Assembly (NCBI RefSeq): GCF_000003815.2
Contig: NC_049995.1
Span: 11,526,548 to 11,590,547 of the forward strand
From: Branchiostoma floridae
Taxonomy: Eukaryota; Chordata; Leptocardii; Amphioxiformes; Branchiostomatidae
DNA length: 64,000 nucleotides
Direction of reading: 5' to 3'
Both the position numbers and the translations under genes were made by a program. Below are positions 1,832-62,800 of this stretch, piece after piece. Numbering within the stretch: position 1 is the stretch's first letter; every line of letters begins with the position of its first letter. The notes under the pieces were generated by a model. That model worked only from the letters and a program-made list of their open reading frames with translations. It made no database searches and was not told where the DNA came from.

Positions 1832-2314
1832 CTGTACTGATCCTCATATGGCTGCTGGGTAAGTACTGGCCAGCTCAGAGCCTGGTCTCCAGGCTTTAGT
1901 CATGATTATAGGACTGTAGATAGCCTGGTACCTGGGCTCCACACAGGCCCTCCCCTACACAACAGTTATCCTACTGATTCTCATATGGCTGCTGGGTAAG
2001 TACTGACCAGCTCAGAGCCTGGTATCCAGGCTTTAGTCATGTATATAGCCAGACTGTAGATAGCCTGGTACCTAGGCTCCACACAGGCCCTCCCCTACAC
2101 AACAGTTATCCTACTGATCCTCATATGGCTGCTGGGTAAGTACTGACCAGCTCAGAGCCTGGTATCCAGGCTTTAGTCATGTATATAGCCAGACTGTAGA
2201 TAGCCTGGTACCTAGGCTCCACACAGGCCCTCCCCTACACAACAGTTATCCTACTGATCCTCATATGGCTGCTGGGTAAGTACTGACCAGCTCAGAGCCT
2301 GGTATCCAGGCTTT
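1832..2314 (+). repeat. 140-bp tandem array of a TM9SF1 exon with its splice sites
   Basis: Four tandem copies of a unit holding the exon end CTCATATGGCTGCTGG followed by donor GTAAGTACTG. Donors start at 1859, 1996, 2136 and 2276, so the spacing is 137, 140 and 140 bp. The first copy is partial and fused to the GCGAAA repeat. Copies 2-4 each hold a complete 49-nt exon (1947-1995, 2087-2135, 2227-2275) after acceptor CCACACAG. Units are nearly identical, so the amplification is recent or under homogenisation. Confidence 0.9.
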
Positions 2315-4373
2315 GCCCTGGACATAATTGTAAAAATGACTTCTTTGAAGTTCATATTTTCAGGAATCCTTTTGACAGTGCATTTAGCATTTTAAAGGGA
2401 AAACTGTACAAAAAATGACAAATAATGATAACTGTTGGACACAAAAATTGTTGTAAAACAAAATTATACCAATAATCCATTGGCACTATGAATTTAGGTA
2501 AATTTAACCCAAAGTGATTATCATAGCACAATAGAAATTGGTATTTACTAAAACCAAAAACGATAAAACGTCAGAAAGCAATGATAGTGAGATTGTCTTT
2601 TGTTTTCTTCTTTATCGACAGTTGGCTTCCCCCTGACCGTGATTGGTGGAATCTTTGGAAAAAACATGGCGGACAGTTTTGACGCGCCCTGCCGGACCAA
2701 GAACATCCCGCGTGAGATCCCGCCGGTGCCCTGGTACCGCTCCGCCCCAGCGCACATGCTGATTGGTGGATTCCTGCCCTTCAGGTTTGTCAATCATCTT
2801 TTACTGCATTGTCAATCACCAGTCAATTATCTTTACTGACCTAACAATCATGTTACTACTCCAGGGCTCTAGCTAGCGTCCGTTTTTCCGTCAATTGATT
2901 ACGGAAAAATTTTAAAACCAATCCGTCAACTTTGACAGACAAAACCCTTGGTGGATTAGCTACAGGCGGCTTGGGGATGCCGTCCACGGCCGTAAAAGCC
3001 ACACACTGTTTGTTTTGCTATAATTGTTATTATTGTTGACAAAGTGTGTCGGTGGCCTTTCGCATACAATAATCTCATTAAAAACCCGTTTTTCAAGGTC
3101 TTACTTCAGTCTTTCTAACTCCTGGAATAGTGTTTTCGCGACAATGTTACTACTCTGTCATCTATTACTTGCAAATTATCTGTAACATGTCAATCGTCCA
3201 TTGATTAACATCATATGTTTTCCACCTTTCAATCATCAGATGTTAATTATGCATTGTCAATCATCTGCTTCTCACCTGTCAATCATCTGGTACCTGTCAT
3301 TCATCTGCTTCCTGTCAATCATCAGTTACCGAATCATTTCTTGCTCACCTGTCATTAATTTGTTGATCTCTTGTCAATCATCTGTTTGTAACCTGACAAT
3401 CATCTGTTTCCTGTCAATCATTTGTTGCTCACTTGTCAATCATTGATTACTTATCTGTCAGTCATCTGTTACAAGCCTTTCAATAATCAGTTACCTTTTT
3501 ATCAACTGATATTCACCTGTCAAAAATATTTCCTGTCAATCATCTGTAGCTGACGTACTAAACATCATTCTGTTACTTAATTACTGTCAATCATCTTTTA
3601 TTCTCTTTCTCAATCCTCTGCTCGCCTGTCAACTTTGTTGCCCACCTGGAAGATGATTGCGCACAGTGTCATGACAAGGAAAATGGCAACATTTTGTTTG
3701 TCATTGCCACCGTTGTAATTTTGTCTTTTCTAATAATTTGAACCACAAGGTTTCAGGGCTCAAAATACCACCTGCATATGCAGGTTAATGCAGGTAAAAT
3801 TGGAGCTGTGCAGGTATTTCTGCCATGGTTGTCTACCTGCACCTAACCTGCACTGGTCCATACACTGGGTATTATACATAAATGACCTATAATGTAGGTG
3901 TATGTGAATTGTTATTAGCTACATTGACTTTTAGTGTTACCACCTAAAAAAGTATAAAAGAAAAAAATAGCAATGGTTACTAACAATTTTAGTATGATCC
4001 ATACTTCAAAAAATTTAGAGTGGTGCAGGTAAGATATGTCTGGTGCAGGTAATTTTCGGTGCAGGTAATTATCAATGCACTTGTGCATGTATGCAGAAAA
4101 AGGTATTTGGAGCCCTGCATTTTCTGTGAGTCATTTTTATCTTAAGAGTCAATGACATGTCCTCTGCCCCCCTCCCCCCAGTGCCATCTCTGTGGAGCTG
4201 TACTACATCTTTGCCACCATGTGGGGCCGCGAGCAGTACACGCTGTACGGGATCCTGTTTATCGTGTTTGTCATCCTGCTGTCCGTCACGGGCTGCATCT
4301 CCGTGGCGCTCACGTACTTCCAGCTGTCCAGCGAGGACTACCGCTGGTGGTGGCGGTCGATATTCAGCGCCGG
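2227..4373 (+). CDS. TM9SF1: TM9SF1, transmembrane 9 superfamily member (partial, internal exons)
   Basis: Three internal exons: 2227-2275 (or an upstream array copy), 2622-2784 and 4182-4373. TM9SF (nonaspanin) proteins are nine-helix membrane proteins of the endosome/Golgi system; their exact role is not settled. Splice phases fit: the array exon ends CTG G, joined to TT to give Val, so the protein reads [15 protein letters not shown] then [15 protein letters not shown]. This is followed by [16 protein letters not shown] and the next helices, [22 protein letters not shown] and EDYRWWWRS. Wording and spacing match the C-terminal half of TM9SF1 closely. Earlier exons and the last exon (final helices and cytosolic tail) were not found, so the gene is incomplete in this window. 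Introns contain a minisatellite and two MITE-like insertions. Confidence 0.9.
2622..2784 (+). CDS. TM9SF1: TM9SF1 exon, loop after a membrane helix
   Basis: Acceptor TTTATCGACAG before 2622 and donor CAG|GTTTGT after 2784. Encodes [14 protein letters not shown], a cysteine-containing hydrophilic loop ([12 protein letters not shown]), then the start of the next helix GGFLPF. Enters with two bases of a codon and leaves with AG, which joins T from the next exon to give Ser. Confidence 0.93.
2785..3640. repeat. about 20-bp TGTCAATCATCTG minisatellite
   Basis: Degenerate tandem copies of CTGTCAATCATCTGTTACC fill most of this TM9SF1 intron. They start at the donor itself (the intron begins GTTTGTCAATCATC). 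A CCGTCAA-type element at about 2866-3160 interrupts the array. Confidence 0.8.
2866..3160 (+). mobile_element. CCGTCAA-type non-autonomous DNA element, copy 1
   Basis: Begins GGGCTCTAGCTAGCGTCCG with CCGTCAATTGATTACGG. Shares a long interior (CACACACTGTTTGTTTTGC, AATCTCATTAAAAACC) with copies at 46,062-46,862 and, inverted, 56,203-56,556. No coding capacity. Confidence 0.7.
3755..4114. mobile_element. MITE-like element with GGGCTCAAAATACC termini
   Basis: Left end AGGGCTCAAAATACCACCTG and right end GGTATTTGGAGCCCT are inverted copies. The interior is rich in TGCAGGT. It ends about 70 bp before the TM9SF1 acceptor. A related element rich in GGTGCACCC lies at about 40,202-40,535. Confidence 0.7.
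4182..4373 (+). CDS. TM9SF1: TM9SF1 exon, two membrane helices
   Basis: Preceded by a strong pyrimidine tract (CCCCCCTCCCCCCAG) and followed by GG|GTAAGA. Encodes [18 protein letters not shown], then a long hydrophobic segment ([14 protein letters not shown]) and [16 protein letters not shown]. These are hallmark TM9SF1 segments. It ends in a partial Gly codon whose continuation is not visible downstream. Confidence 0.94.
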
Positions 4374-4444
4374 GTAAGAACTGAAAACGTTTTTTCTTCA
4401 CATATTTTTTTATTTATTTGTTCAGCTTTTTACAAACAGCCAGA

Positions 4445-4782
4445 GCTGCTCAACTAGCCGTAGGCTATTATCAAGGGCTAACCCTGCACATGTTCGCACA
4501 TGTTCGCACACGACGGGTTATACCGCCCCTTACGCGGTGACACACCCATCTGGGTGAATGATGTAGATCACCATGTGGCTGATACGAGACAGAGGTCGCC
4601 AGGCCTCCATCCGGGTGATTTGAAGTGAATCACCAACTCCCGACAGAAGGATTGAGTAAAGTGAGGAAAGTCGTGTAAAGTGCCTTTCCCAAGGGCACAA
4701 GACCGGCAACACGGCAGCCGGATTCGAACCGGCGACCTCTCGGTCACGGGCCGAATACACTACCACTGTGCTACGCGGCCCC
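4445..4782 (-). mobile_element. tRNA-derived SINE
   Basis: On the - strand it starts GGGGCCGCGTAGCACAGTGG (A-box-like), then GGTTCGAATCC (B box), then a conserved body with CCCTTGGGAAAGGCACTTTA. The same family occurs at 46,095-46,559, with remnants elsewhere. It is a SINE head, not a working tRNA gene. Confidence 0.85.
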
Positions 4783-4871
4783 ACTACATATACACATATA
4801 CAATGTGTAGCAAATGATGTCCCTGTAGCTCAACTGGTAGCAGCCTCACAGTTGAGATCCTGGTTCCAATA

Positions 4872-5015
4872 CTGTAAATGCAGAAGTTTTCGCGGTGGTT
4901 TAATGTTTGCGGTTTTCACGTTGCCAATTCACCGCGGACTTAAAACCACCGCGAACATTTTTCCACGGCAGTAAAAGACTACAGTGTGTGGTGCTACTGT
5001 GAACTTAAAACGCGA
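4872..5015. mobile_element. MITE, TACTGTAAATGC family, copy 1
   Basis: Starts TACTGTAAATGCAGAA and contains GCGGTGGTTT opposite AAAACCACCGCGAAC, so it can fold on itself. Copies at 21,202-21,371 and 41,074-41,282; a truncated one probably runs into the gap at 11,178. Confidence 0.7.
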
Positions 5016-6531
5016 ACAGTCCTTTTTCCCGCTTCCACAAAATTAGAAATGCATGTACGGTACAATGTGTATTGAAGGATATAAAATGGTGGTCTCATGC
5101 TCACAGAGGTACCTCAAGCTTAAAAATGAAGGTATAGTAAACCCTTCCTTTAAAGATAAGTACCCTACTACAGAAACAGTAAAGTACCTTGCTGCCATAC
5201 AAAATGTATGTGCCTCTTAGCACTACAACAACACTACAAATGTATATTATTATAGCTAACATCATTCTGCTATACACACTAAAAACAGAAGGCCTAAAAT
5301 TGGAATATCCCTAGAAAGGTTGCAATAAAGACTATGATATTGTCTATCTGATAATTTGAAAATGTATTATTATCAATGTTAACTTCTTTTGTGCTTCTCC
5401 TAATAGATGTAAAATGTTCCAGTATACATGTATTATATTATGATGTAAGGCTTTCATTGTTTGAATGCCCAAGTACTTACTTTGTGCCTAACTGATAGGA
5501 GATAATATAGTTAGGCAGTTTTGCCTGATACCACCAAAAGTATTGTAGGTATGGTTTAGTTAGGCAAGTATGTTGCTTGCCACAGGCTACATGTATGCTT
5601 TCAGTTAAACCCTTTCCATACCTTTCTGTAAATGTAGGTCAGTATCATACTTCATAGCAGTTGTGCAATCACTACAGCAGGGAGCTAGACCAATGGTAGT
5701 GGTGTGTGTTCTGCTACCATACTCTTTCTCATACATGTAAATGCTGGTAGTACAGATTGAAGTGATTGTGGATTTCAACAATGACATTTTTTGTTTATTT
5801 TGGCAACATGCACATTCGTATAACATGTTTTCAAGTCTAGCTGTGATGTTTCAACAACAATGGATGTGGTAATGTCGGAAAACAATGGATACACAGTCAT
5901 TGTCATATATTCAAGAAAGAATGATACAGAAAGAACTGAAGAAATAGGGAGTCTTTGCTACAAATATAGTCATTATTTAACCCTGTACAAAGTATTTCTT
6001 TTTAGCAATATACAAATGTACTATCTATGATTATGTAGACATACAAGTTTCTAAATTTTTGTCCCTTTTTGTATGAAGTTTCAGTGATAGCTTGAAAAAT
6101 CTTACTTCTGCGCAGACTTTCATGGTGTTTTCATGACATGGAATGCAATAGAGTTGTTTTCATCTATGTAGGTAGAAAATTTACCAAAAAACTGACTTTT
6201 GAAATTTGAAATTCTACAGCCCTGAGTCAACCTAACATTGCTTAAGTTGCCTTTATGAAATTATAATTCCTAAAGCACTGGAACAAAGGAATGCATCTCA
6301 TAACTGTTTTTTGACAACTGAAACTTTCTGGTCAACAGGATTTGGCTGTTTGTAAGGAGACAACCGGTGGTGTATACATAAACACTGCCATGTTATAAGC
6401 CGACAGTTTTAACATAACAGGGATGCAAGGATTCCGTCAGGCCAGCAGAAATGCGCGGTTTTGGCGTCGGAAGTACGTGTGCTCGTTCAAAACGCTGGCA
6501 CGTAAAAGGGGGGCGAGTTTTCATCCAATAG
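5016..6531. other. no gene seen
   Basis: A/T-rich sequence without a convincing exon. I looked for the last TM9SF1 exon here and did not find it. Confidence 0.5.
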
Positions 6532-8610
6532 CTAACTAGAAGATTTATCGGTTGGAAGAGTGGTATTGATCTGTACAATACTTTTTCTTCCAAATTATCT
6601 CAATGTGTTGACAAATATGTTCCCTCCAAAATGGTAGGCGCCAAACGCCACTTACCATATGTTACTCCTGACCTTAAACGGTTAATGAGGAAGAGGGACA
6701 GATACTACAGAAAGACCCTAGGTCAAAAGTCACCTGAGAGAAAAGACAAGCTGAACGAGTATAAAAAAGAAATCAAGAAAAAGTTAAAGGAATGCTACTG
6801 GCAGTACATTGAATCTATTATAACTGACATACCTGTACCAGGAGATACTAGTGATAACACCAATAACCCCTCTGCAAAGCAAGGCACCAAGAAGTTCTGG
6901 AGCTTTCTTAAATCCATTAAGTCAGAAAGGTCTGGTGTTTCCCATCTTAGGAACAATGGTACCCTGGTGTCAGACAATAAGTCTAAAGCTGACCTACTCA
7001 ATCAACAATTTCAATCTGTATTCACCAATGAGCCCTCAGATGACCCCCTGCCAGACCTAGGACCTAGTCCTCATGTCTGTATGGAGGACATCCAAATAGA
7101 GGTGAGTGGTGTTGACAAACTGTTGGGGAATTTAAACATCCATAAAGCCTCTGGGCCAGATCAAGTTCATGCCCATGTCCTGAAGGAACTCAGCTCAGTC
7201 CTCAGTCCCATCCTTCAGGTCATATTCCAGAGAAGCCTGGACACCGGCATTGTGCCCGAGGCTTGGAAAGAGGCTAACATAGCCCCTGTGTACAAGAAAG
7301 GTGATCGTTCCAAACCAGAAAACTACCGTCCAATCTCGCTCACATCCATTTGCTGCAAAGTAATGGAACACATTATTGCCAGCACAACGATGACACACTT
7401 TCAGGATAACAACATTTTGTATGACCTCCAGCACGGTTTCAGCCACGGCAAGTCATGTGAGACCCAATTGCTCTCACTAACAGATGACTTGGCTGTCAAT
7501 AGGAATAGTGGAATCCAGACAGACCTCGTTTTTATGGACTTCGCGAAAGCGTTTGATAAAGTCCCACACCGTAGACTGCTACACAAACTACAGTACTACG
7601 GTGTCCGAGGGAACACCCTTGTCTGGATACAGAATTTCCTGTTGGGCCGGTCCCAAACGGTTGTGCTTGATGGAGAGCGTTCGGACCCTATGCCAGTGAC
7701 CTCGGGCGTTCCCCAGGGTACAGTGTTGGGGCCCATCCTCTTCCTAGCATACATAAACGATCTCCCAGAACACGCTGCAAATGCAAAGGTGAGACTCTTC
7801 GCCGATGATTGCATTTTGCAGATGCCTATCCATGACAGCTCTGATTGCAACAAGCTACAGGAAGACATAGATAACATCTGTCTCTGGGAACAAAGGTGGC
7901 TGATGGAGTTCAATCCATCTAAGTGTGAGGTTATGACCATACCATCGTCCAAAACACCCATCACCCACACATACACCCTTCACAGCCATCCACTAAACAA
8001 GGTAAGTACCACCAAATACCTTGGAGTCACCATCTCCTCCAACCTCACATGGGGCAGCCACGTCGACGCCATAACATCAAAGGCCAACAAAACTCTGGGC
8101 ATGCTCAGACGCTGCCTGCGGGTTGCCAGCACGACGGCAAAGGAGAGGGCCTACATGGCCCTGGTAAGACCACACCTGGAATATGCCTGTAGTGTGTGGG
8201 ACCCGCACACCCAAGATCAGGTGAGGCGGGTCGAGATGGTTCAGCGTCGAGCAGCCCGGTATGTCACCAACAATTACCAGTATACAAGCTCTGTCACTAC
8301 ACTTATAAACCAACTGGGCTGGCAGTCCCTACAAACTAGAAGGAAAAATGCCAGACTTACAACTATGTACAAGATCATTCATAACAACATTTCCGTCCCA
8401 CACGCGTCCAAACTGGTCCTGGCGACTCGATGCTCCCGCCGCACCAACCACGCTTTCAAGCTGCAGGCCATCGCGAGCAAATCCAACTTTTATAGGCTCT
8501 CGTTCTTCCCTCGTACCATCCAGGAGTGGAATGAACTTGAGCCTGGTGTGGCGGAGGCGGGGTCTCTCTCCCAGTTCAAAACTGAACTGGGGAGGGCCCT
8601 GCTGCATTGA
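6532..8610 (+). CDS. LINE reverse transcriptase (partial)
   Basis: An intact frame of nearly 700 codons; the first ATG is at 6631 but coding-like sequence (DKYVPSK) runs upstream of it. The RT palm motifs are all present in order: KKGDRSKPENYRPISLTS; motif A with the first catalytic Asp in FMDFAKAFDKVPH; motif B SGVPQGTVLGPILF; motif C LFADDCIL with the catalytic Asp pair. The C-terminus has the ARYVTNNY / LGWQSLQTRR region seen in Jockey/CR1-group elements. It would copy its own RNA at a nicked target, but the missing endonuclease makes this copy non-autonomous. No stop or frameshift interrupts 6631-8610, so the insertion looks young. Confidence 0.93.
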   Translation, partial: LTRRFIGWKSGIDLYNTFSSKLSQCVDKYVPSKMVGAKRHLPYVTPDLKRLMRKRDRYYRKTLGQKSPERKDKLNEYKKEIKKKLKECYWQYIESIITDIPVPGDTSDNTNNPSAKQGTKKFWSFLKSIKSERSGVSHLRNNGTLVSDNKSKADLLNQQFQSVFTNEPSDDPLPDLGPSPHVCMEDIQIEVSGVDKLLGNLNIHKASGPDQVHAHVLKELSSVLSPILQVIFQRSLDTGIVPEAWKEANIAPVYKKGDRSKPENYRPISLTSICCKVMEHIIASTTMTHFQDNNILYDLQHGFSHGKSCETQLLSLTDDLAVNRNSGIQTDLVFMDFAKAFDKVPHRRLLHKLQYYGVRGNTLVWIQNFLLGRSQTVVLDGERSDPMPVTSGVPQGTVLGPILFLAYINDLPEHAANAKVRLFADDCILQMPIHDSSDCNKLQEDIDNICLWEQRWLMEFNPSKCEVMTIPSSKTPITHTYTLHSHPLNKVSTTKYLGVTISSNLTWGSHVDAITSKANKTLGMLRRCLRVASTTAKERAYMALVRPHLEYACSVWDPHTQDQVRRVEMVQRRAARYVTNNYQYTSSVTTLINQLGWQSLQTRRKNARLTTMYKIIHNNISVPHASKLVLATRCSRRTNHAFKLQAIASKSNFYRLSFFPRTIQEWNELEPGVAEAGSLSQFKTELGRALLH

Positions 8611-8828
8611 GTCGCCCCTACACGTCCTTGTACATATGTAAATAACACTAACCCACCACATTCACTTGTCTTGTCATTTGCACCCACAGTTTCATTTGTT
8701 TATGTACCTTTGTGTTACCTCTATTTTCCCGATGTTTGTATGTTACTTTCACCTGTAACTAACTAAGCATGCGCACTGCTATTAATCCCCGTCAAGGGGG
8801 CTGAGCAGTAGAAAAAAAAAGAAGAAGA
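6532..8828 (+). mobile_element. 5'-truncated non-LTR retrotransposon (Jockey/CR1-type LINE)
   Basis: A reverse-transcriptase frame followed by a short 3' region ending in A-rich sequence with AAGAAGAAG near 8811-8828. A small hairpin (CCCCGTCAAGGGG) lies just before the tail. No apurinic endonuclease domain is recognisable upstream and the frame closes with TAG at 6529-6531. It is therefore a dead-on-arrival 5' truncation or has decayed at its 5' end. Confidence 0.88.
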
Positions 8829-9643
8829 TGTCGCTATTTTTGAAGAAAAGGCGTTTAGGGAAGTTGAGCATTCTGTGTGTGTCATGTTCACTTGTTTTGG
8901 CAGGGTTCGGAGCATGTTTGTGTGAAATTCAAGTGTAGGAGGGTGAACTTGATATTGGTTTGGAGGGGAGTCTGCCATGTTTGGAATATTGCCCTGCAAT
9001 GTACATGTATCTTCTATCATTTTTGTGTGACATTTGTATCATGGTGTCGAATAGCTCCTACACGAGTGGACATGAATTTGAAGGTCACATGTCTGTTTTT
9101 CAGGCATTTCTGACTAGATGTTGTTCCCTTGGGAAAGGTACTTTACACGACTTTTCTCACTCTACCCTGGTGTAGAAATGGGTTGCTGACTTTGTTATCT
9201 TATTATTTTATTTTATTCACATTTGTTTTGTGAGCGTACGACAAGAAGCATATCTGCTTATGTGGGTCTTCTGCTCAGTAAACATAAAGCAAATAATGGT
9301 CAAAGTCAACGGGAACTACAACAAATACAAAGGTTGACATTGAAAAGGCTAAATGACAATCAACGGAGGAAAAGTAATAATTGCAGACTGAGTTACAATG
9401 AAAACGAACTAAAAACAAGATAACGGCTATACAGACACAAGGTTGGCTTAACAATCAAATTGAACTAAAAGAATCTTCCAGTCTTTGAAATGTAGTTAAA
9501 CACATGGTCTAGAATTTGATAGTTTATGGATTGTGGGAGGGAGGGTTTGCACTTTGCTGACTTTGTTGGGAAGGTACATTTTGTACAGTGAAACTTGTAT
9601 AAGTGACCACGTCCATAAGACGACCATCGGCCTATAACGACCG
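8829..9643. other. no gene; SINE remnant
   Basis: No supported exon. A fragment at about 9115-9180 (TTCCCTTGGGAAAGGTACTTTACACGAC region) matches the SINE body. Confidence 0.5.
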
Positions 9644-9743
9644 NNNNNNNNNNNNNNNNNNNNNNNNNNNNNNNNNNNNNNNNNNNNNNNNNNNNNNNNN
9701 NNNNNNNNNNNNNNNNNNNNNNNNNNNNNNNNNNNNNNNNNNN
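9644..9743. other. assembly gap
   Basis: 100 N, a placeholder length. Apparent frames across it are meaningless. Confidence 0.99.
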
Positions 9744-10500
9744 TAGGAAACAGCAATCCTTTTTTTGATAAAACAATGATTTTATTTAGTATTAATGCAA
9801 ACCTACTAATTAAGTCATTAACAACTACACACAAGCCTACTCGTGTCTACAATGTTCACTCAAGACTACCACAATAGGGTCGCTTCTTCAACTTTACTCA
9901 AGGTAGACTATAGTATATAGCATCACTTTCATGGTAAATGAGTATGTTTTCTGATAAAGTAATTTCTGATACAGTAGTGGCAAAAATCTTATAATATGTG
10001 AAAGGCACCAACGGGCGATCAATGTGTCAGTATGCAAATTTCACAGCTTTGGAAGAACTGGAAGAACAATAACAACTGTAAAGTCGTCAAACTGGTGTCA
10101 AAAGATTAAGTAGAGTTTCAAGATAATACTCGCTATTTCACACTTATTGAGTACATTTCACTACTGACACTAGTCAGACTTGTACTGAATCATTTCACAG
10201 CTTTAAAAGAACAATAACCAGTGTTAAGTGATCAAAAGGTGTCAAAATACCAAGCAGAGTTTCAAGATATTACTCACAACTGCCTTGAGTAAAGGTGTAG
10301 AAGTGACACTAGTGAGGCAGCTGAGTAGAAATGTGCCTTGAGTAAAGTTGAAGAAGTGACTCTAGTGTGGTAGTGGAGTAGAGTGAACATTGTAGAAGTG
10401 ACACAAGTAGGCTTGTGTGTAGTTGTTAATGAGTTAGTAGGTTTGCCTTAATACTAAATAAAATCATTGTTTATCAAAAAAAGGATTGCTGTTTCCTATA
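9744..10500. mobile_element. element with about 165-bp inverted arms
   Basis: Sequence at 9744-9910 (TAGGAAACAGCAATCC...) reappears inverted at about 10,325-10,500 (...GGATTGCTGTTTCCTA). The interior holds two imperfect copies of a TTTCACAGCTT...AGAGTTTCAAGATA module. The left edge meets the gap. No coding frame. Confidence 0.75.
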
Positions 10501-10514
10501 TCTTTTGTTTCCTA

Positions 10515-10805
10515 TATCATTTGAGTTTGGATCGGAGCTGGTCCTAGGGCCAACTCCGATCGGGGTCTCTCCTAGTAGAATCGCCGATTCTCCTAGGAGA
10601 GATCCCGATCGCAGTCTGTTTCCAATATCTTAGCATCATTTGAGTTTGGATCGGAGCTGGCCCTAGGAGAGACCCCGATCGCAATCTATACTAGCAGAAT
10701 CGCCGATTCTCCTAGGAGAGACCCCGATCGGAGCTGGCCCTAGGACCAGCTCTGATCGAGATCTCTCCTAGGAGAATCGACGATTCTACTGGATCGACAT
10801 CTCTC
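10515..10805. repeat. palindrome-rich GATCGGAGCTGG / CTCCTAGGAGA repeat
   Basis: About 290 bp made of reiterated, largely self-complementary blocks: GGATCGGAGCTGG, CTCTCCTAGGAGAG and AATCGCCGATTCTCC. Copies start near 10,530, 10,647 and 10,723. Strong local hairpin potential. Confidence 0.75.
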
Positions 10806-11177
10806 CTGTGACATATATATATATATGTATATCAAATTACATAAGCTACAAACTCAATAGGAACGCCAACTTGACAAAGGCACTCATGCAAGAGATTAGC
10901 AATTTTTTTATACCTGTATAGTATAATTTTCACAGATACATCTATCTATCTATCTATATCAATATAAATCTATCTATCTAGATCTATACCCACATTTAAT
11001 TTGTATCTATTTATACAGCTACATTCATGTATATGGTAAGCTCTCTTCTATACTACTACTATTATAATATATACACAATGTATACTGTAAAATTGATTTT
11101 CTTTTCTGGTTGGTTTTATTTCGCTGCAGGTGGAAAAAATAGAGGTTTTTGCAGTATTTTGACTTTGCGGTTAAAAG

Positions 11178-11423
11178 NNNNNNNNNNNNNNNNNNNNNNN
11201 NNNNNNNNNNNNNNNNNNNNNNNNNNNNNNNNNNNNNNNNNNNNNNNNNNNNNNNNNNNNNNNNNNNNNNNNNNNNNNNNNNNNNNNNNNNNNNNNNNNN
11301 NNNNNNNNNNNNNNNNNNNNNNNNNNNNNNNNNNNNNNNNNNNNNNNNNNNNNNNNNNNNNNNNNNNNNNNNNNNNNNNNNNNNNNNNNNNNNNNNNNNN
11401 NNNNNNNNNNNNNNNNNNNNNNN
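11178..11423. other. assembly gap
   Basis: 246 N. Confidence 0.99.
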
Positions 11424-13259
11424 CAGGGCATGTGGTCACTTAGGGTCATTAGTTTCCCACAAATGAATGACAGTTGGAGAAAAGAAGAAAGGAAAAAGCA
11501 TTGTTGGGTTTCTACAAAATTTCAATGAAAAATTAGATTGCTGATTATTTATTTCCTTGGTTTTGGACAGAAATTTTCAAAATTGCTTTAATCATTCACA
11601 GCAATATCAAGAAAATCAAGCAGTTTACTATACAGTAGAAGCCAGTAAATTGCACAACAGATAACTGCACACTTCTGTTAATTGCATGGAATCCCAAAGT
11701 CCCGTAGCTTTGTTGCACAATCCGACAATTGCACAAAATGTGCTGGCAAATGGGGAGTGCGATTCAACAACTTCGACTGCATATGAGTTTTGCTATTACC
11801 AGTTGGACAACTTTCAATCCTTTACCTAAGTTCGTAAATCCAAGGGGTTTAAATGTCCCAGCAAGTCCAATCCTAACATTAACAACAAATCTCTACCAAA
11901 GCCCCTAACACATGCAATACTACTTTACAAACATCAACAGCCTGTAGTACAGGGAATACCAACTTACAGATTCTGACATACTTAGACAAAACCTGCTTTA
12001 TGTCAAATAGAATTTTGAGCCAAGTACCCAGCTTGTGGTATCTGTGATTTGTCCTTTGGTGTAACACACTATAGTCTGTCCCTAAAGATGTCATTTACAT
12101 TATAGGAACTGACACAAGCCCTTCTATTCACTGTAAATCTTGTTAGTGTGATGGTTAGTGGATAGGACAGGTGGAAGCAGGCACATGTGTTAGCTTTTAA
12201 CTCTGACTGCTCTTCCTGATAAAAAAGAGGACAGACTCACTGTTTTTGAAATGAGCTCAAGATTCTGAGGAAAGCTCCTTCCAACAAATACTTCATAAAA
12301 ATGTAGCATACAAATAAAATTGGTCTATTCTTAATCACTATCGCCATTATTTGTCTTAATTGTAATACGAAATACTTTGAATGCATGGTTGGAAAATATG
12401 TGGGCAAGGACGTTATATAGGAAATGGCTACTTCCCTATATAACATTCTTGATAGGACAAAGAACTTCAGTGTTTTTAAACTAAAGCCAGACAGGTCGCT
12501 AAGGGCCCCAGCTAACAGCAGTACTCTGGCTTCCAGGGTCTCCTGACAACTTTCTTTCAGATCTTGGAGAAGTCACTTTGGGGCAATCAGGACAAAGAAA
12601 CAGTTCTCAAAGACTTAAGTGTTTCGCTAGGTACAACGTCTGTGTGTTTTCACTATCCTTCATACCCTTGTACACACAGGGCATTAGCTTTCTCCATCCC
12701 ACTTTATGTCTTGTACCAGACTTAAATAGTCTTTGCCTTCCAAGCTGGTTGGTATGGTGATAAAGCTATTGGTTTGTCTACTACCTGAGTGGTTCTCTCT
12801 TTCAAGTTAGACTTGTTGAGAAACTTGATACCACATTAGAATAACAAGATTTTACAGCTTTTCTGAAACAAAACTTTTGTATTTCTTGGTTGCCTGTGAA
12901 TATAGCAGAACACTAAGAGACAATTTCCCAGTATAATCAATACACAACTTTTTTGGCACATAAAATTTGAATTAAAAGAAAAACAAAAGAATTGACAAGA
13001 CTCCTGGAAGATTGGAATTTAAATGGAAGGTTCTGTTTTGAAGGTTAACCCAAGGTCAGTGAACAGGTGTTTATATCCGCCAGATTAACCCTGGTACACC
13101 CGAGGGGGAGGGAAGGTGGGGGGTTACATACTCAGATCAACAGGGGGGTGATTACAAGGTAGACTGGATGTCATTGCCAGACTGTTTCCAGGGCCTGTAC
13201 AGCCCAACTCTTCCGCTCTAGGGCCAACATGCCTCCAAGGAAATTCTATGGTAGCCCCC
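11424..13259. other. no gene seen
   Basis: A/T-rich. Minus-strand open frames at 11,879-12,094 and 12,237-12,446 resemble no family I know and lack splice context. Confidence 0.45.
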
Positions 13260-13630
13260 CTGAGCAGGTCTGCATGCTCTTTTCTGTAAAGCGAAATCTT
13301 TAAGTGTCCCGTAAATTGTAAATGTGGCCTCCCAAATTTCGGAAGTCTTAGCGAAGTCCAGGAGCAAATTTTACCTCTCATAATACAGGAAATTGCATTT
13401 CGGAATGTTAAGACCACAATTTTGCCAGACCTCCCTTTCGACACATTTCACCTTCGGTCAGTGATAATATACGAGTATATGTGGGTGTCAGCAAAATTTG
13501 CCTATCAAAATGCAGGAAATAGTATTTACGAGGGTCAAGATGAGGGTCAAGTTGAATTTAGCGTAAAGTGCTGCCGGCCATCCCGAATCTAGCGTAAAGT
13601 GTTGTCAGGACCTTCCATGCTGACCCTCTG
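13260..13630. mobile_element. diverged GAGGGTC-family element
   Basis: Starts near GGTCTGCATGCTCTTTTCTG and ends near GACCTTCCATGCTGACCCTC, matching the ends of the better-preserved copies at 30,067-30,268 and 37,460-39,054. Confidence 0.55.
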
Positions 13631-23846: not shown

Positions 23847-47460
<23,614 letters not shown>

Positions 47461-50884: not shown

Positions 50885-53800
50885 CTGAAAAAGAAAGAAT
50901 ATTGTTACACATGGACAAATGTGTACATTACAATTAGTCATTTTTCAATAACTACATGCATTCAAAAAGTCGAACTCAAGCCAAAAGTTTGGGGAAAGCT
51001 GATAAAAAAATATAAACGCAATGCAACCCTTCTGAAAATTATATTATCAGGTTGGTAGATCATAGCATATAGGACTTTTCTTTTACACGTCAACCAGTTA
51101 GGTGAGATTAACTGTTTGTGTAAAAGAACACTCCTATATCCTACAATGTAACCCTTTCAGGAAAATAGTAGCACTTTGGTGGTAATGGCCAACACTGCAT
51201 TGTGGACACAAAACACAGACAAATGCACACAATGTCATACATACGCACAGACATACAAACTGGCATGCATACACCAGAGACATTCGCATACACACATACA
51301 TGAATACATTTGTACATGTGCACACTGCAACCAGACACACATGAACACAGGAAAAAATCAACACTGCACTACCTGTTGCTTATGCAGATTCTGACGTAAA
51401 ATACATTCTATAAACCAGAAACTACTGTACCTATTGTTCCCTCCTTGACCAGTTTGTGTAAGTGGTGTGTGACGTTCCCTGCTGCAGCCTTGTGTAGGTG
51501 TTCTGGTGTGTCCTACTCAATGAACAAAAACATTCTTTTTTTTAGTTTCAACGAACAGGGCCAATAGCCTGATAAAATCTTGCTTACAGCAGCCCGCTAG
51601 ACCCATCTAGATGGGAGGGGCAAGTTACAGCCCTGGACAGCAGATTTTATGTTACACAGACTAAAGGGGCCAAAAATGATAATTAGTTCAGACCCTTAAA
51701 TAGATCTGGCTACAAGTGTTATTTTCACTTTTTGACAGATTTTCCCTTAATCATGATAATGTTTTACATAATCTACGCTACTTACCCCATAGAATGAATA
51801 TTCAGTTCCTAAAAAATTAAGTGACCAAGTGAAAAGAGAATAGACAAACAGGAGGCAAATATTTATCTTTAGCCCTATTTACCGAGTCTACCAGATTGAC
51901 TAGTTACTATTATAGGAAAATAATTTGCCAGAACAGTTTTGCTACCAGAGATTTCAGCCCAAGGGGGAATGCAAAATCAGCACAGACTGACTACCCTGGC
52001 AAATTTCCCCATTTTCTGCAAAATTCTACAATTCCCGTACCCCCTTAGAATTTAAAAGCCTAGTCTCTACCAGACTTCGGGTCCCTGGAAAAACCGTAGA
52101 AATGGAACAAATAGAGGAGTAAACCAGCCAGAGGCAACCTGGAGTCTGGTAGGTGGCATGCTGTTCCCTAGCCGGCTATGTTCCTCTGGCCGGTTTACTA
52201 TTAATTTTGTTCCATTTCTACGGTTTTTCTAGCGACCCGGAGTCTGGTAGAGACTAAGGAGGGCCTGGTGGAGGCTAATATTTACCACATAAACCATTTT
52301 AACAATCTCCATAGCTGTGAGCGGTGTCTCCCTGGCCTTCTGAAACACTGCCAGGATCTGAGACTCTCTCATGTTTCTGTGGTTTATGTACTCCTGGATC
52401 TTTTCTGTCGCATTCTGGACGATCGGCCCGTGACCTGGATAGATGGTCCCGGGTTTCAAGCCCGCTAGCTTCTGAAGGGACTTCATGTAGTCATAGAGGT
52501 CCTCAAATACCTGTGACAGCAGAGAGAGTTACTGCTATTACTTAAGGGTATACGCCAAAAATAGTTACTCAAGCAACTGGATATGGTTTTGAAACGGTCA
52601 GACGTTTCGGAAAGAATCCACTTTCCTTCGTCAGTGACACTGAAGTGATCTGCAAGAAACAGGTCTTTTATACTCTAACTATGAATGAAGACAATTTCAG
52701 ATGTCCAATAGGAAAGGTTGTAAGACAATTCAGACTGAAGACAATTTGGATTCCAAAGAAAACAAAGCTAAGCCAAAGTCAAGCTGAAGACAATTTGGAT
52801 TTCAAAGGATATCAAGGCTAAGACACAGTTAATGCAATTGAGTCAATTAGCTCCTGTTGTTTTAGTTACAGGAGCTAAAAGTTTTGTTGGCGGGGGGGGG
52901 GGGGGAGTGCTGTGTCCCAAGTGCCGGAAAGTTCCATACGTAGCCCCCCTTTTCTGTTGAGGGTGGGATTGTAGATTCTCTCATATATGGCCTCTCTAAC
53001 TCCCCGTTCAAACCAGCGGGCTTCGCGGTCTAGGATGTCGGTAGATTGGAGGTTGAAGGAATGTCCTTGGTTGTGTTGTAGGTGGTTGAAAATAGCAGAA
53101 GAGTTGCCGTTGGCCTTCGCTTTGCAATGTTCTTGGTATCTTGCTTTTAGTGGACGACTAGTCTCACCAATGTATGTGTTGTTACAGTTGGGTTCCTCGC
53201 ATTTGAGTCTGTAGATTACATTGGCCTTAGTACCTTTCTGTGGTTTGTCTTTTGGATGTACCAGTTTGTGTCGGAGGGTTGAGTGAGGTTTGAAGTTAGT
53301 GGCGATGTGGAAGTTTTGGAAGATCCGTCTGAGTTTTTCCAAAACTACTTGGACATAGGGGATGGTAATGTTGGCTTTCTTTCTGTCGGTCAATGGTTTG
53401 CACTTGGCTGTTTTCTTTGAGTGGTCCGAGGGTTTGAGGGCTTTGTTGAAGGTCCAGTTTTGGTAGCCACATTTGTTCAATGCACTTCGGAGGTGTTTGT
53501 GTTCCTCTGTTTTGGCTTTGCCAGAGGAAACGATGCTGTCTGCCCGGTGATACAAGGTTTTGATCACTGCCAGTTTGTGTTCCAAAGGGTGGTGAGAGTC
53601 AAAGGCCAGATATTGGTCAGTGTGCGTCGGTTTCCTGTACACTTCGAACTGAAGGCTGCCGTCCTTCTCTATGATAGTTTTGGTATCTAGGAAGGGGAGC
53701 ATGTTGTCATGACTTGACTCCTGTGTGAACTTGATGTTCTTATCTACTTGGTTGATGTGGTCAAAGAACTCATCAGCTACTCTCTGTTTTAGCTTGCAAT

Positions 53801-56800
53801 AAGTGTCATCTACATAGCGGAACCAGTTGAGTGGGGGAGTGTCCTTGAAAGTACTGATAGCCTTCACTTCAAACTTTTCCATGTAGAGGTTTACAACAAT
53901 GGGTGACACTGGTGATCCCATAGCACAGCCATGCAGTTGTTGGTAGAACTGTCCTTTGAAAGAGAAATACGTACACCCTAGGCAAAGGTCTAGCAGTTTG
54001 CACAGTTGGTCTGGAGATAGCTTGGTTCTGTCTGTTAGTGTGTTGTCAGCCTCCAGGGCTTCCTTGACTACCGAGACTGCGTCCTTAGGAGGTATGCAAG
54101 TGAAAAGCGAACAGACATCGTAAGAAGTGATGATTTCATCTTCTTCTACCCGGAGATCTTTGATTTTGTCAACGAAGTCTGCACTATTCTGAACGTGATG
54201 TTGAGACTTCCCCACTAAAGGTCCCAGGATCTTAGCTACACTACCAAAAATGATTTTTGCTTGTTTTGCTTACCCCATGGACAATTCTTATATGAAGAAA
54301 AAATATTCTTGCAGGAAGAAAATGTAGAATAAAATTCTAAGCAAAACAAGCAAAACAAGAATCTACCAAAAAATCTTAATTCTCATGCAAAGAACAATTT
54401 TCTTATTCTTCTTTGGTGAAGAAAATTTTTTCTCACACCTAAGAACTTGAAGCAAAATCTTCTTGTTTTTTCTTATGGTGCAAGAAAAAAAATCTAGAAA
54501 TGCTTATTTTTTTAAAACTCTTAAGAAATACAAGAATTTTTGTTCTTGATGTAAGAAAAGTATTCTTGGTGTAAGAATATTAATCTCAAAAATGTCTAAA
54601 AAAATTCAAGCAAAAATTTGCTTGCCCCATGGACAAGCACGTTTTTCTTAGATTTCTTGGGGACAGAATAATTTTCTTCCTGGAAGATAAATTTTCTGTG
54701 AGGAAGAAAAACAAGATACACAGAAAAAATCATTTTTGGTAGTGTAGAAATTTTGCTAACTCGTACGTGACAGAACCTATGCTGGACACAATGGGGCGTA
54801 GGGGGACATCCTGTTTGTGGATTTTGGGAAGGCCGTAGAAGGTTGGGGGTTGTTCCGAAGTGGGGTAGAGTTTTAGATAGGTGGCACGGTCAATCTTTTT
54901 TTCCTTGTCTTCCAATTCCTTGAGAGCCGTGATGATTTTCCCTTTAAATTGGGAGGTGGGGTCCTTCTTCAAAGGCACGTAGGTGTTTTTGTCCCCTAAT
55001 AGATCTTGTACCTTTCTGTCGTACTGTTCCCTGTCTAAGACTACTGTGCATCTCCCCTTGTCTGCCGGCAGAATTACTATGTCTTGATTGGTGGCCAAAT
55101 CTTTGAGAGCAATTTGTTCTTCCCGAGTGATGTTGCTGGGAGGGGGTTTCGAAACTTTCAAGGTGGTAGCTACTTTGGCGCGTAAGGCTTCAGCCTGTCT
55201 CTGTGGCAAACGGGCCCGGTGGATTGCTGACTCAGTTTCTGTGACAATGTCGATGCTGGGGATCTTGTTAGGGGCTACTGCAAAATTTAGGCCTTTAGAC
55301 AGTAGGGATTTCTCTGGTTCTGTAAGAGTATGGCTACTGAGATTCCTGACCCACCTCTCGTCTGTTCTAGTCTGAACTGGGGTTTTGGAACTGTTTGATC
55401 TCCAATTGGGGTCCCTATCTGCACGACTGTTCCCTTCCTTTTGTAATAGACGTTCAAATTTGTCCTTTTGTCTGGCTTTCCCCTTCTCGTGTTGGTCTTG
55501 TTGACCGCGAGTTACAAAGGCTTTAGTTTCAGCAAAGGTGTTTTCTGATAGTTGTTCCCTCAGTAGATCTTCAAGGTTAGTTTTTCTGTGATTGAGACCA
55601 TCCAATTTGTAGTTAATCTGTCTCACCCTCTCGTTTATCAGCTTCCTTTCAGCGTTGCGAATGATATTGTTGGCCTTGAATCCTTTGATGGAGGTTTTTA
55701 GACGTAAACTAACAGGAGTCACACGTACTTTGAGGCTGCGCAAGTTGTAACGAAGATGGTTCCTGTAGTCCGTAAACTTTTAGCTCCTGTAACTAAAACA
55801 ACAGGAGCTAATTGACTCAATTGCATTAACTGTGTCTTAGCCTTGATATCCTTTGAAATCCAGATTGTCTTCAGCTTGACTTTGGCTTAGCTTTGTTTTC
55901 TTTGGAATCCAAATTGTCTTCAGTCTGAATTGTCTTACAACCTTTCCTATTGGACATCTGAAATTGTCTTCATTCATAGTTAGAGTATAAAAGACCTGTT
56001 TCTTGCAGATCACTTCAGTGTCACTGACGAAGGAAAGTGGATTCTTTCCGAAACGTCTGACCGTTTCAAAACCATATCCAGTTGCTTGAGTAACTATTTT
56101 TGGCGTATTACCTGGATGTCTAACCTACATCGACGTACTTAAGGGTATAATCTACTTATTCTGAGACAAGTTATTGTCATCATCATCAGTTAGCTGGTAC
56201 AAAGGCTCTAGCCAGCTCGACATTTTTTTCCATCAGCCAATTCCCATTGTCGCAAAAACACTATTCCAGGAGTTAGAGAGACTGAACTGAGACCTTGAAA
56301 AACGGGTTTTAATGAGATTATCGTATGCGAAAAGCACCGACACACATTATCAACAATCATAACAATAGCAAAACAAACAGTGTGTGGCTTCTACGGCCGT
56401 GGACGGCGTCCCCATTTTTTAGCCACCTGTAGCTTCCACCAAGGAGCTTTTATCAGATTTTGTCCGTCAAGGTTGACGGATTGGTTTTAAAATTTTTCCG
56501 TCACACGCAGCAAATTTCCGTCAAGTGACGGAAAAAACAGACACTGGCTAGAGCCCTGGCTGGTACGCAGGCGACTGTAAGTTTCTTCAAGTCCCGTTTG
56601 TCAGTAGCAAGATAACGGATCTGTCTAGAGGTCATCTGGCTGTGATAGTTAATCTCCAAGTAGATCTTGCTGTGGCAAATGGGAAGGAGTTTAGCCGGCA
56701 GAGGAGTTATTGGCCACAGCGAAGATCTGCCGCAGAACGGAACCGCTCAAAGGCACTGGGAGGGGCGATCTTTTCAGAAACGTGTTTCTGCTCCTCCTAG

Positions 56801-59800
56801 TATCCACTTACCTCCAACGTGAAGATTGGCTAAATTTGGCCGGGATTATCGTTTTACAACCCTTCCGAGCCAGTATCTGGGACAAATGCGGCGAGCCGTG
56901 CCAGTTCACAGCGGGGGCTTCCCCCCGAAACCGCTGGAGCAGATCAGTTGTACACAAATAACAAGTTGTTACTTGTATATATTTTGCAATAAAAGCTGCG
57001 CTAAACACTTCCTGTATCATTTTTTCATGTCTGCAACTTCAAATCTTTACCGATCATATACGCCTGGATTCGGTTCAAAGACCAACGCTCGTCACATTTG
57101 ACGGACAGACATCGGTGTGTAAAAACGTAGACAGAACTTGAAATTTTGGAAAGGTATCCACATAATCAGCACATGCATTTTCAGCAAAGCCAATTTGAAT
57201 TATTTCTAATGGCGTCCGGTGCATTCTCAGACAAACAAACGGGCGCCGTGGCTTCATGAAACGTTGGGGGAAATCGACGTCAGCGCCCCCCTCCCCACTG
57301 CACTTGCGTCCTGTCGCATCGTGCTGACGCGTTTTGCTGTTGTTTTCCTCCAGTACGTAGTCAGTTATTGACGCGTTATTGACACCAAAGAAGCAAAGAA
57401 ATCCCCAGATGTCACAGAAAACACAATGAACTCTTACAGCCGACCCGTGACGGGATCCCTGGCCCCGCACGCCCGGGGCAATTCGCACCTTCTTCCTAAC
57501 GCAGTTTAATTGCCTGATAATTGCCTTTGAGCGGTTCCTTTCTGCGGCAGATCTTCGCTGTGGCCAATAACTCCTCTGTCGGCTTAACTCCTTCCCATTT
57601 GCCACAGCAAGATCTGCTTGGAGATTAGTGATAGTCTCACATGGGCTGTTTGATGTACTGTAGGTAAGTAGTAAGTAGTGTACAAGTTTGACTGAATTAC
57701 TAGCAATGGTTGGAGGAATAAAGAAATGAATGAAAGGTAACAATTGTAAGCAAATACATAATGTCCAGCCTAACTGCTCTGATAATTCTTACTCAAACAC
57801 ATTCATAATGTATGGTTACCTGAGCGCCTCCGGCCCTGTCCTACCACTTGCTACATGATGTAATTGAACACTTCAGGATGTCTGCTACTTGACAAGTAAC
57901 CATGGTGACAGCTACCTCCAGAATTATTTTATTTGAAGAAGAAGAACAAGGTAAGAAGGCATGAATATGATAACATCTGCCTCTTTCCTAGTGAGCGGGT
58001 CTTGAATGAAAGAATGAGCATAAAGGAAGAAAAGAATAACTTACTGTTGTCCCCTCTCCCAATATACAGTCCCCTGAGAACACAGCATTCTCCTCCTCCA
58101 GTAGAAGTGCCATGTGGTCATCTGTGTGACCTGGGGTGTAGATGGCTCTACAAGAAGGGGGGGAGGTAAAATAAAGAGATAATAAATAATGATTTCTTTG
58201 CCGTCTGAATTAGTTCTTGGCTGACAACTGTACGATGTACCGGTAGTTAAAATTCAAGTTCACCTTTATCAGCGGGGTATAATAATCCTATATCCTTTGT
58301 TTTTAAAAACAGTGTATTCAAAGAGGAATATCAAGTTGACGGACGGTCATTTAAAAATTGCAAAATTGCAATATTTTCAAAACATTGCAGTTTGAAGTCA
58401 CCGTTCATCCACTTGTATCCCTAAATATCCTACTTTTAAAAAACAACAGATATACACAACATGTAGGTTACCCCATGGATAAAGATGAACTAGCATCAGA
58501 CACGCTGATGAATGCAAAAGATGCCAAAATGTTGGACAGGAAGTTAGCTCACGTAGCATTAAAAGAACATGCAGTTCTTCTTTAATAGACTACAAAAATA
58601 ACATAATACAAACTACATGTACACCGGTATCACTTGGCCCACAACCTGCCTGCATGTACACAAAAATTATGAAAATCGATACCTACTTTTTTCTGGTTAT
58701 CATATTCAACGTCAAACAAAACAGGCAACAAATACTCACTTGAGTGTCGCTCCTTCAGTCTTGATGACATCCCCCTCCCTGAGGTAAATATACCCCACCC
58801 CTGTGACCCCAGTGGTCTCCACCCCCTGGGAGGGACTGTACCCCTCTGCGTCCTTCGACCCCAGACCACTGGGGTTTCTGGGCAGTTTGCTGATTCTGAA
58901 GGGCGAGACTGGAATTACACAGAAAAAAACAATAGAATTTGAGTAACAATAAATATCAAAACCACAAATTATATAAAGTAGGGCTTTTTGTTTTCCTCTA
59001 CTTCCAAAAAAGAAGTCAAGTACGAATTTTCTAGATAAAGCCAACACTAGTAGTATTCGAGTACCCCGTACTCTCTCTTTATTATATGAGGGTCTGCGTG
59101 CCCTTTTCCGTTAAGTGTTACGAGCTATTCCGTTGTTGGCCCACTTCAACATCAAGCACTATCTCTATATCCTTTGTGCTATTGGTCATTTCAATGCTGC
59201 GTAATACGTAAATATTTGTTATCCTGAATCGATTTTTTAGGCATTCTTCATGACGAGTAGACCTTTGTACATTTATCAAAGACATTTGACAAATGTACAA
59301 ATCTACTGTGACATACATAACGCTATAACGGACTCCGTTACATGTATAAACAAATGCAACTAAGCAAAGCAGTTGTGTAACTACTTTAAGAGGGCCCCCA
59401 AGGGGGGTACCGACAACGCTGTACACTAAATTCGGGAGGGCCGGCTACGTAATAGGAGCCAAAAATATACATTTTTTAGTTAAGAATGGCTAAAAATCCC
59501 AAATATCTCATTTTATAAGTGCTCTATGAAGAAAGTGTTGATGGGGTCCTGTTGCCATGTGTCCAATTTACCTCTGTACCAAATTTCAGGTCATTTGGTT
59601 TACATACAAGGGCATAGAAGCCAAAAATATACATTTTTAGTAAAAAATGGCCAAAAACCCTAAAATAACTAATTTTTGAAGTGATCTATGAGCAAAGTGT
59701 CAACGGGGTCCTGTGAGCATATGTTCAATGCACCTCTGTACCAAATTTCAGGTCATTTGGTTTCTATACAAGGGCATAGGAGCATAAAATATACATTTTT

Positions 59801-62800
59801 AGTCAAAAATGGCCAAAAACCCTAAAATAACTCATGTTTGGAGTAAAGAATGAATAAAGCGTTGATGGGGTTCTGTGGTCATATGTCAAACACACATATG
59901 TACCAAATTTCAGGTCATTTGGTTTTTATACAAGGGCATAGGAGCCAAAAATATATATTTTTAGTCAAAAATGGCCAATAACCCTGAAATAACTAATTTT
60001 TGAAGTGATCTACGAAGAAAGTGTTGATAGTTTACTGTGCTCATATGTCCAATGCACCTCTGTACCAAATTTCAGGTCATTAGCTTGTAATACCAGGGCA
60101 CAGGGGCCCAAAATATACATAATTGGTCTAAAAATGACCAAAAACCCTAAATATCATAAATTCTAAGACCTCTATCAAGAAAGTGAAAAAAACACCTGAG
60201 GGTATTTGCTATTTCTACGACCCTGCCAAATTTCAGCTCATTTGGCCCACAAATGAAAAAGTTGAATCAAATTGAAGATTTGACAGGAGAAGAAGAAGAA
60301 GAAACCAAGGAAAAACAGTATATTGCAATCCCATACTACGTATGGATTGCAATATAACTAAGCAAAGCAGTTGTGTAACTACTTTAAGAGGGCCCCCAAG
60401 GGGGGTACCGACAACGCTGTACACTAAATTCGGGAGGGCCGGCTACGTAATACGCTAAATTATGGACACTTAATTACGCTCTACGCTAAATTAAGAAATT
60501 TCACAATGCTGCAAAATACACCCGATATTATTATTATTATTATAATTATTATTATTATGCACATCTTTATCGTCTTTTGGGTGAAATCCGTCTACGGCAG
60601 AACACGTGAAGAGGGGATCTAAACAAAACCGATAATTCCATCAACAAGATTCCCGTCCGCACTCTCGGACTTGCCTCGGCTTATCCCTAAATGCTAACAT
60701 TGTGCCGTTTTTACCAGTATCTTTATGAAACATTTTGATATAAACTACCACTGCGTACCATTTTGGGAACTTAATCTATGTTATTGTAAATTGCGTAAGA
60801 GCAAATTCTCACAGGAGTCTGCCCGTGGAAAGCGCAGTCACAATTTGAAGAGGGACAACTTGCTGGCCAGAGCCGGCGACAGCAAATTTCGTATGTGGCG
60901 TAATTTTCAGCACTCGTAGCACCGAAAGCGGAGGCGCGACAATCCTAGGGCGTCCGGGGGCATGCTCCCCCGGGAATATTGTGAAATCTTGACTCCCTCA
61001 AACGCCAATTTATGCATTTTAAAGGGCACATTTTGCTCACAGACTAAACTAAGTTAAATAGCATTCCAAATAGAAATTCACATGGTTTTAAGTTATTGAG
61101 GGCAACGCCCCCAAACATCATTTTCAGATTTCGAGTGCCGAAAGCACGAACTGTCGCAAGGTAGGTATGGGAAAATTTGGAAATTTGTACCCTCTGAAAC
61201 ACCATTTCCTGCATTTTGAGGGATAAATTTTGCTGGCAGACCATGTGCTCAATGTAGTGACATTTCTGTCAGAGAAACGTTTTGGAGGGCGACGAGCGCC
61301 GGAGAGTCGTGAGCACCAGAGGCCCAAGCCGTCGCCAGTCCAAGGGCCGCCCGGCGCCCGGAGCAAAATTGAAATCTCGACCCTCTGAAATGCCATTCCC
61401 TGCATTTATCAAGGGGCACATTTTGCTTGTTAACTAAGTTCGGTAAAGAAATTTCTACTAGTTGGGGGGCGACGCTCCCGCAACATATTTTCACCATGTC
61501 CAAGGCCGAAGGGGTAAGCCTTCGCAAGGAAGGTCCGGCGAAATTTTGAAATCTGTACCCTTTGAAACGCAATTTCCTGCATTTTCGCGAGTAAAATTTG
61601 CCGGTAGACAAGTTAAGTTTAATGAAACTTTGATTACGCTTTACGAAAAATTAATATGAATTACGTTTTAAGGTAAAATCCGGTTAGCTTCTACGTAATA
61701 CGTTAAATTAAAGGGGCCAATATCGCTCGACGCAAAATTTACCAATTACGCTCTACGTTGAATTCGAGCGGTCCCGCTACGTAGTACGTAGAATTAAAAC
61801 CGCCGATTACGCTCTACGGAAAAGGGCTTTGGGGCCCCCCTTTAATACCAAGCTGGAAAGCCTGCCATATTGCAGGGATGCCCCATACATGGTCGTGGTG
61901 CCAGTGTGTGATGTTGTATCACTACTTACCGAGTTGGAAAGCCTGCCATATTGCAGGGATGCCCCCTACATGGTCGTGGTGCCAGTGTGTGATGTTGTAT
62001 CACTACTTACCGAGTTGGAAAGCCTGCCATATTGCAGGGATGCCCCCTACATGGTCGTGGTGCCAGTGCGTGATGTTGTATCACTACTTACCGAGTTGGA
62101 AAGCCTGCCATATTGCAGGGATGCCCCCCACATGGTCGTGGTGCCAGTGCGTGATATTGTATCACTACTTACCGAGTTGGAAAGCCTGCTATATTGCAGG
62201 GATGCCCCCTGGAAGATAGCCCGGTATCCCAGCATCCCCAGTGTCTATCAAAATACGACTATGTACCAAAAAAAAAGAAAAAAAAAATTATAGATTTGGT
62301 ATCCTGTTTTGTTTTTTTCGACCTCTTGTATTAGATTGTGCGTCTGAAGAGTCTGTCATCCATTAGATTTACTGGTGAAAATTTATGGGGTGAAAGAACA
62401 GTGACTGTTTTCTGACAGCTGGTTTTCCATGACAGTCTTTTGACAGATACTGACCTTAACGTCTCCAGGCAGAAAAGGTTTGTCAAAGATTATTAACCTG
62501 GTCGTTTCAAAAACGTTTAGATCTTACACCCCAACATCTGCTTGAAGATTACCTACTGAGGTCAACGTCCTTCCGGTCAATCATAAGCCAAACGTGTTGC
62601 CTTCTTCAATTAATTTGGTTGGCTGTCCGTTGTTAACAGATACAAAGTATTACGTCTATCGTCAAGCTTCTTTATAATAGATAAAGATTTAGCTGTCATT
62701 TGTTGTAAAGACTCTTTAAAAGCTTGTTCCTGTACATGTAACTGCGTAAGTCTAACTCTAAGTGACCTAGTTACAAGTTATATCTTGTACAGTATACCTG

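Follow-up and report, generated by a model that had tools for sequence, protein, structure and literature searches.

Mirage-like tandem duplications across exon-intron boundaries of TM9SF1, STK3/4 and LACTB2 in a 64-kb window of the Branchiostoma floridae genome

We analyzed a stretch of 64,000 bp of the Branchiostoma floridae genome, referred to as the window, in which three genes were recognized. STK3/4 was identified by a PDB match (E 1.8e-33) and by the Mst1_SARAH domain (Pfam), LACTB2 by its match to the PDB entry 4ad9 (beta-lactamase-like protein 2, E 1.2e-23), while the 41 amino acids encoded by LACTB2 exon 1 gave no Pfam match. The third gene belongs to the TM9 family according to an EMP70 Pfam match (E 8.3e-48); its product had no PDB match up to an E value of 1. 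We take it to be TM9SF1 rather than another TM9 protein on the basis of a human sequence and of the position of the array described below. Exon ends were placed by eye with an accuracy of about 3 bases. The resulting list of 38 splice sites is incomplete, as the first STK3/4 exon(s), the last exon of TM9SF1 and possible further LACTB2 exons were not found; its TM9SF1 entry at 1,858 belongs to the first array copy.

The TM9SF1 array resides on the plus strand at 1,835-2,314 (TRF period 140, approximately 3.5 copies, 97% matches) and was also recovered by self-BLAST. Each full unit of 140 bp consists of an exon tail and the donor GTAAGT, and four such donors were counted by eye. The next TM9SF1 exon is located at 2,622-2,784 and the following one at 4,181-4,373, both on the plus strand. 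In three copies, the exon piece within the array matched the human probe, though weakly (10 of 16 residues, E 1.1), and it was assigned to TM9SF1 partly because it directly precedes the next TM9SF1 exon. Upstream of the array, the human probe did not reveal the exon body in positions 1-1,834, so that the outermost exon copy is absent as assembled, nor did such a probe detect the last TM9SF1 exon within the window. By eye, repeat-like sequence adjoins the left side of this array.

Three duplications were found in STK3/4, all on the plus strand. At 40.65 kb, alignment disclosed an upstream copy (40,654-40,768) of the intron end together with 26 nt from the start of the 40,871 exon, followed by a filler of 11 bp at the duplication joint (40,769-40,779, by eye) and by the real copy comprising the intron end and a kinase exon (40,780-41,038). 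TRF reported this pair as two copies of 84% at 40,654-40,896. The intron part of the upstream copy differs at 16 of 89 aligned bases (73 matches) and has 2 gaps, and all 26 exon bases were identical, with an intact acceptor at 40,743. The exon piece thus appears to have been kept somewhat better than free decay would give, which speaks slightly against such decay. A similar arrangement exists at 44.31 kb, where an acceptor and 79 nt of an exon were copied upstream (44,309-44,402) with an in-frame stop. The exon part of this copy exhibited 68 matches, 11 mismatches and 2 gaps. A 7-bp filler (44,403-44,409, by eye) separates it from the real acceptor and exon at 44,410-44,552, and TRF again found two copies of 84% (44,309-44,505). 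By eye, both fillers differ from the bases after or before the other copy.

The third STK3/4 duplication is a relic. The exon at 42,928-43,034 has a copied 3′ edge and donor, and a decayed copy of the exon end and the intron start was aligned at 43,301-43,419. Positions 42,991-43,030 and 43,322-43,361 are 85% identical over 40 bp, an alignment ending 4 bp before the donor; a looser alignment crosses the donor and reaches 43,085/43,419. The score of the intron block was matched by 1% of 500 shuffles and by 0.5% of 1,909 local 79-mers. According to the alignment, an inserted base breaks the donor GT of the copy, which lies 331 bp downstream of the source exon end and is no longer in tandem.

The metallo-beta-lactamase motif is HxHxDH, and in LACTB2 it is this very region that has been multiplied. 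The array (61,846-62,210, minus strand; TRF period 81, 4.5 copies, 97%, also recovered by self-BLAST) is composed of units made up of the exon tail carrying the motif and the donor GTAAGT. Read on the minus strand from exon 2, it contains five copies, the first of which is truncated. Four of the five possess the donor GTAAGT, which is replaced by GTATTA in the last copy, and four encode HWHHDH. Exon 2 as assembled (62,174-62,258, minus strand) runs into GGIPAI*QAFQL; it is devoid of the HxHxDH stretch, which the four neighbouring array copies encode, and contains a TAG. Compared with the human protein, we estimate a loss of about 30 codons. The broken exon may be a matter of the assembly, of the allele or of biology. 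On its intron side, the array is adjoined by repeat-like sequence, as seen by eye.

The tandem copies over exon-intron boundaries that the earlier note had described in these genes are therefore real: self-BLAST recovered all five exon-edge duplications (one in TM9SF1, three in STK3/4 and one in LACTB2) and TRF four of them, the 43.3-kb STK3/4 relic being seen by alignment only. On the donor side there are two arrays and the relic, on the acceptor side two pairs; the repeat units measure 81, 101, 126 and 140 bp (TRF). In the whole window 20 local duplication clusters were detected (E 0.01), five of which are at splice sites. The STK3/4 copies have diverged by 15-16% and the TM9SF1 and LACTB2 arrays by about 3%; this mixed divergence within one window indicates repeated duplication events.

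The earlier note had also mentioned a splice-site minisatellite in another STK3/4 intron. The array is present, yet it does not belong to the exon-edge set, as it is part of a palindromic transposon-like element (25,576-29,455) of 3.9 kb, which is located between two STK3/4 exons, contains an N gap close to the middle and possesses arms that are 98.5% identical over 1,792 bp. The splice-like minisatellite of 51 bp occurs in both arms (26,716-27,367 and 27,601-28,315), and strings such as CAGGTGAGT and TTTGATTACAG occur in its units of 50-51 bp. A search with the STK3 probe at an E value of 5 yielded no match in 26,716-28,315. We rejected the minisatellite as a sixth member, since it lies inside the arms of the palindrome and an origin from a host exon edge was not found. 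By eye, the palindrome may be flanked by a target duplication of 9 bp, ATGCATGTA, which five unmatched bases separate from each arm. A Mutator-like origin was considered and is not claimed; evidence for Mutator-like elements in chordates is described as limited, with no transposase in the lancelet sequences checked there (PMC6446971).

The five duplications match structures already described in amphioxus as mirages; the members are new, the kind is known. Mirages are minisatellite-like tandem duplications of 5′ or 3′ exon/intron boundaries, many copies of which carry AG/GT signals; they were reported for the globin genes BflGb6 and BflGb9 and, by citation, for Adh3, with units of 150-160 bp in the globins and 10-72 bp in Adh3 (PMC3087553). 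Despite the mirages, regular splicing was reported for the globins and Adh3, and the discussion of mirages in the same paper also references work on the retinol dehydrogenase and presenilin genes (PMC3087553). Our loci share the architecture, the affection of both exon edges and the size range, the units of 81-140 bp falling within 10-160 bp. Boundary-spanning tandem units are present at four of the five loci, while the 43.3-kb relic spans the boundary in the looser alignment only. The AG/GT signals are kept in some or all units, lost in the relic and altered in the last LACTB2 copy. Unlike the published cases, the loci reside in other host genes, and their TM9SF1 and LACTB2 arrays have no genuine outer copy in the assembly.

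A further lancelet gene, PGBD5, exhibits imperfect repeats of 60 and 108 bp over exon edges, and troponin C is added by citation (PMC3902484). Omission of a predicted exon within the PGBD5 repeats results in an apparent deletion of 13 residues from the protein (PMC3902484). This deletion recalls the gap in LACTB2 exon 2. There, however, the loss is larger, presumably about 30 codons against the human sequence, and is accompanied by a stop. Outside amphioxus, a tandem duplication across an intron-exon boundary led to intron gain in the potato RdRp gene (PMC4974935). Its duplicate consists of the 3′ side of the intron and the 5′ side of the exon, like the copies at 40.65 and 44.31 kb, but the new potato intron is in use, whereas the copies in the window lead to stops and look unused. 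Boundary duplication is discussed in connection with intron gain in PMC3087553, PMC4974935 and PMC2891723, and new introns have been proposed to arise, among other routes, by exon-edge duplication (PMC3087553, PMC4974935). Genome-wide surveys of mirages were not seen in the open-licence literature.

We consider it probable that all five loci are mirages, i.e., local duplications of about 80-140 bp which include a splice site and may have originated by break repair. A break near an exon edge would be repaired with end fill-in and little added sequence, yielding two adjacent copies. Most copy pairs would then decay, while a few, as in TM9SF1 and LACTB2, could grow to several near-identical copies via slippage or unequal exchange. 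Such duplications might survive if splicing can continue at the outer, genuine site, which would turn the inner copies into intron. The involvement of break repair is suggested by the filler at two STK3/4 joints, though the fillers could instead be later mutations. A point against the mirage explanation is that neither TM9SF1 nor LACTB2 has an intact genuine outer copy in the assembly.

The strongest alternative is chance. In a repeat-rich genome tandem duplications may arise anywhere, and those at edges would be noticed through the recognizable exon and the copy held by selection. The earlier note regarded the duplications as too frequent for chance and proposed a comparison of splice-site with random windows. 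Run within the window, this comparison gave no secure excess. For 37 sites (one of the 38 was dropped owing to N bases) and a control grid of 37 bp, from which exons with 80 bp around them and the region 25,500-29,500 were left out, a nearby copy at score 50 was found for 5/37 splice-site windows versus 123/1,411 random windows (one-sided p 0.22). Removal of the mirage footprints from the control resulted in 5/37 versus 88/1,367 (p 0.09), and restriction of the control to genic parts in 5/37 versus 51/684 (p 0.15). Among 15 combinations of five thresholds and three controls, a single one fell below 0.05 (3/37 versus 27/1,367 at score 100, p 0.042), the other 14 lying above. At threshold 40, seven of the 37 sites passed, two of which (44,552 and 62,258) are the opposite edges of exons already counted. 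With 600 random points as control, 49 had a copy at threshold 50. The count of covered bases points in the same direction: at E 0.01, 4 of the 38 sites were covered where 2.7 would be expected (p 0.29), and stricter cut-offs gave p values of 0.21, 0.17 and 0.11.

The count of founding events speaks against chance. Unit lengths were entered by hand (the relic as 100) and the palindrome arms were merged, which reduced the 20 clusters to 19 events. Five of them are at edges compared to 0.67 expected by unit length (p 0.00015), and p was still 0.006 when edge copies were taken to be twice as detectable. Without the relic, p amounted to 0.003 (0.026 with doubled detection). When STK3/4 was counted once, meaning that two of its three events were dropped, it rose to 0.017 and, with doubled detection, to 0.091, a value that suits chance. 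In subsets chosen by strength, four of 11 stronger events (p 0.001, doubled detection 0.011) and four of seven events picked as young tandem arrays (p 0.0001, doubled detection 0.002) were at edges. Since arrays inflate covered bases, we consider the event count better suited, even though it was carried out only once the pattern was known. The same phenomenon is, moreover, in print for other amphioxus genes. Altogether, we regard chance as a possible explanation, albeit one that we rather doubt, and the exon-edge excess in the window as suggestive and unproven. The local mutational process at exon borders suggested earlier fits the loci, and structures of this type already have a name in amphioxus, but the window does not provide a secure excess in its favor, and taken alone the copies in it look like tolerated debris. 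Should the event-level excess (5/19 versus 0.67) extend to the whole genome, amphioxus would lend itself to observing this route of intron gain and to asking why borders break.

A more far-reaching reading, which we think unlikely, is that exon edges in this genome are hot spots of break repair, an error-prone process in which edge sequence would be copied as well as deleted, so that genes would continually lose and regain intact borders. TM9SF1 and LACTB2 would then be alleles after edge loss and the apparent PGBD5 deletion a third such case.

The duplications could also be an artefact of the assembly, i.e., of collapsed or misjoined haplotypes in a heterozygous draft genome. The window contains seven N gaps, the TM9SF1 exon body is missing left of the array and LACTB2 exon 2 is truncated. 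For one of the globin mirages, an aberrant assembly in the draft genome has been noted (PMC3087553), and the numbers of PGBD5 repeats vary between two published versions (2 versus 7 and 3 versus 6), although the original PGBD5 sequence was borne out by new data (PMC3902484). The three STK3/4 duplications, diverged by 15-16%, are hardly the product of misassembly, and we judge an artefact as the cause of the set to be improbable. There is similarly little to commend transposons, whose insertion beside exons might capture and multiply edges. Repeat-like sequence does lie beside the TM9SF1 and LACTB2 arrays, but at the STK3/4 joints at 40.77 and 44.40 kb no transposon ends were visible by eye, only the filler of 7-11 bp, and a strand-reversed self-comparison (16-base words) disclosed no inverted-repeat pair bracketing any of the five loci.

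It is very improbable that the copies serve as alternative or regulatory (poison) splice sites, even though GTAAGT accompanies four copies each in LACTB2 and TM9SF1 and the acceptor at 40,743 is intact with 26/26 exon bases. At all four loci checked, use of an inner site would, as read by eye, bring a stop into frame within some 15 codons (TGA or TAG in TM9SF1 depending on the copy, TAG in LACTB2, TAA and TGA in STK3/4), which argues against productive use, not against a poison role. The fifth locus, the 43.3-kb relic, has lost its GT and is without a usable donor, and the 44.3-kb copy has decayed. In view of the stops and of this relic, the inner copies are best read as tolerated intron, and they look like unproductive debris. 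Productive alternative exons were rejected on account of the stops at 4/4 loci, and the idea that the copies are a source of new alternative exons is unsupported as they stand.

Other repeats were encountered in the window. An open frame of 692 codons at 6,532-8,610 encodes a strong reverse transcriptase domain (E 1.6e-33). The region 52,547-56,112 in a LACTB2 intron has inverted ends of 339 bp that are 99.4% identical and enclose open frames on the minus strand. One of these has a reverse transcriptase match just below the Pfam cut-off (28.2 versus 29.6 bits), and no match was found for the other. We also rejected a known RNA family as the origin of the duplications, since the Rfam scan at the gathering threshold yielded two tRNA-like matches only. 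A tRNA-like repeat is present in two copies of opposite orientation (4,653-4,783 and 46,094-46,224), which are 98.5% identical over 131 bp. Finally, a tandem array of 162 bp with about 4.3 copies (59,358-60,452, TRF) sits between direct copies of a flanking stretch, 97 bp in length, 100% identical and 998 bp apart (self-BLAST).
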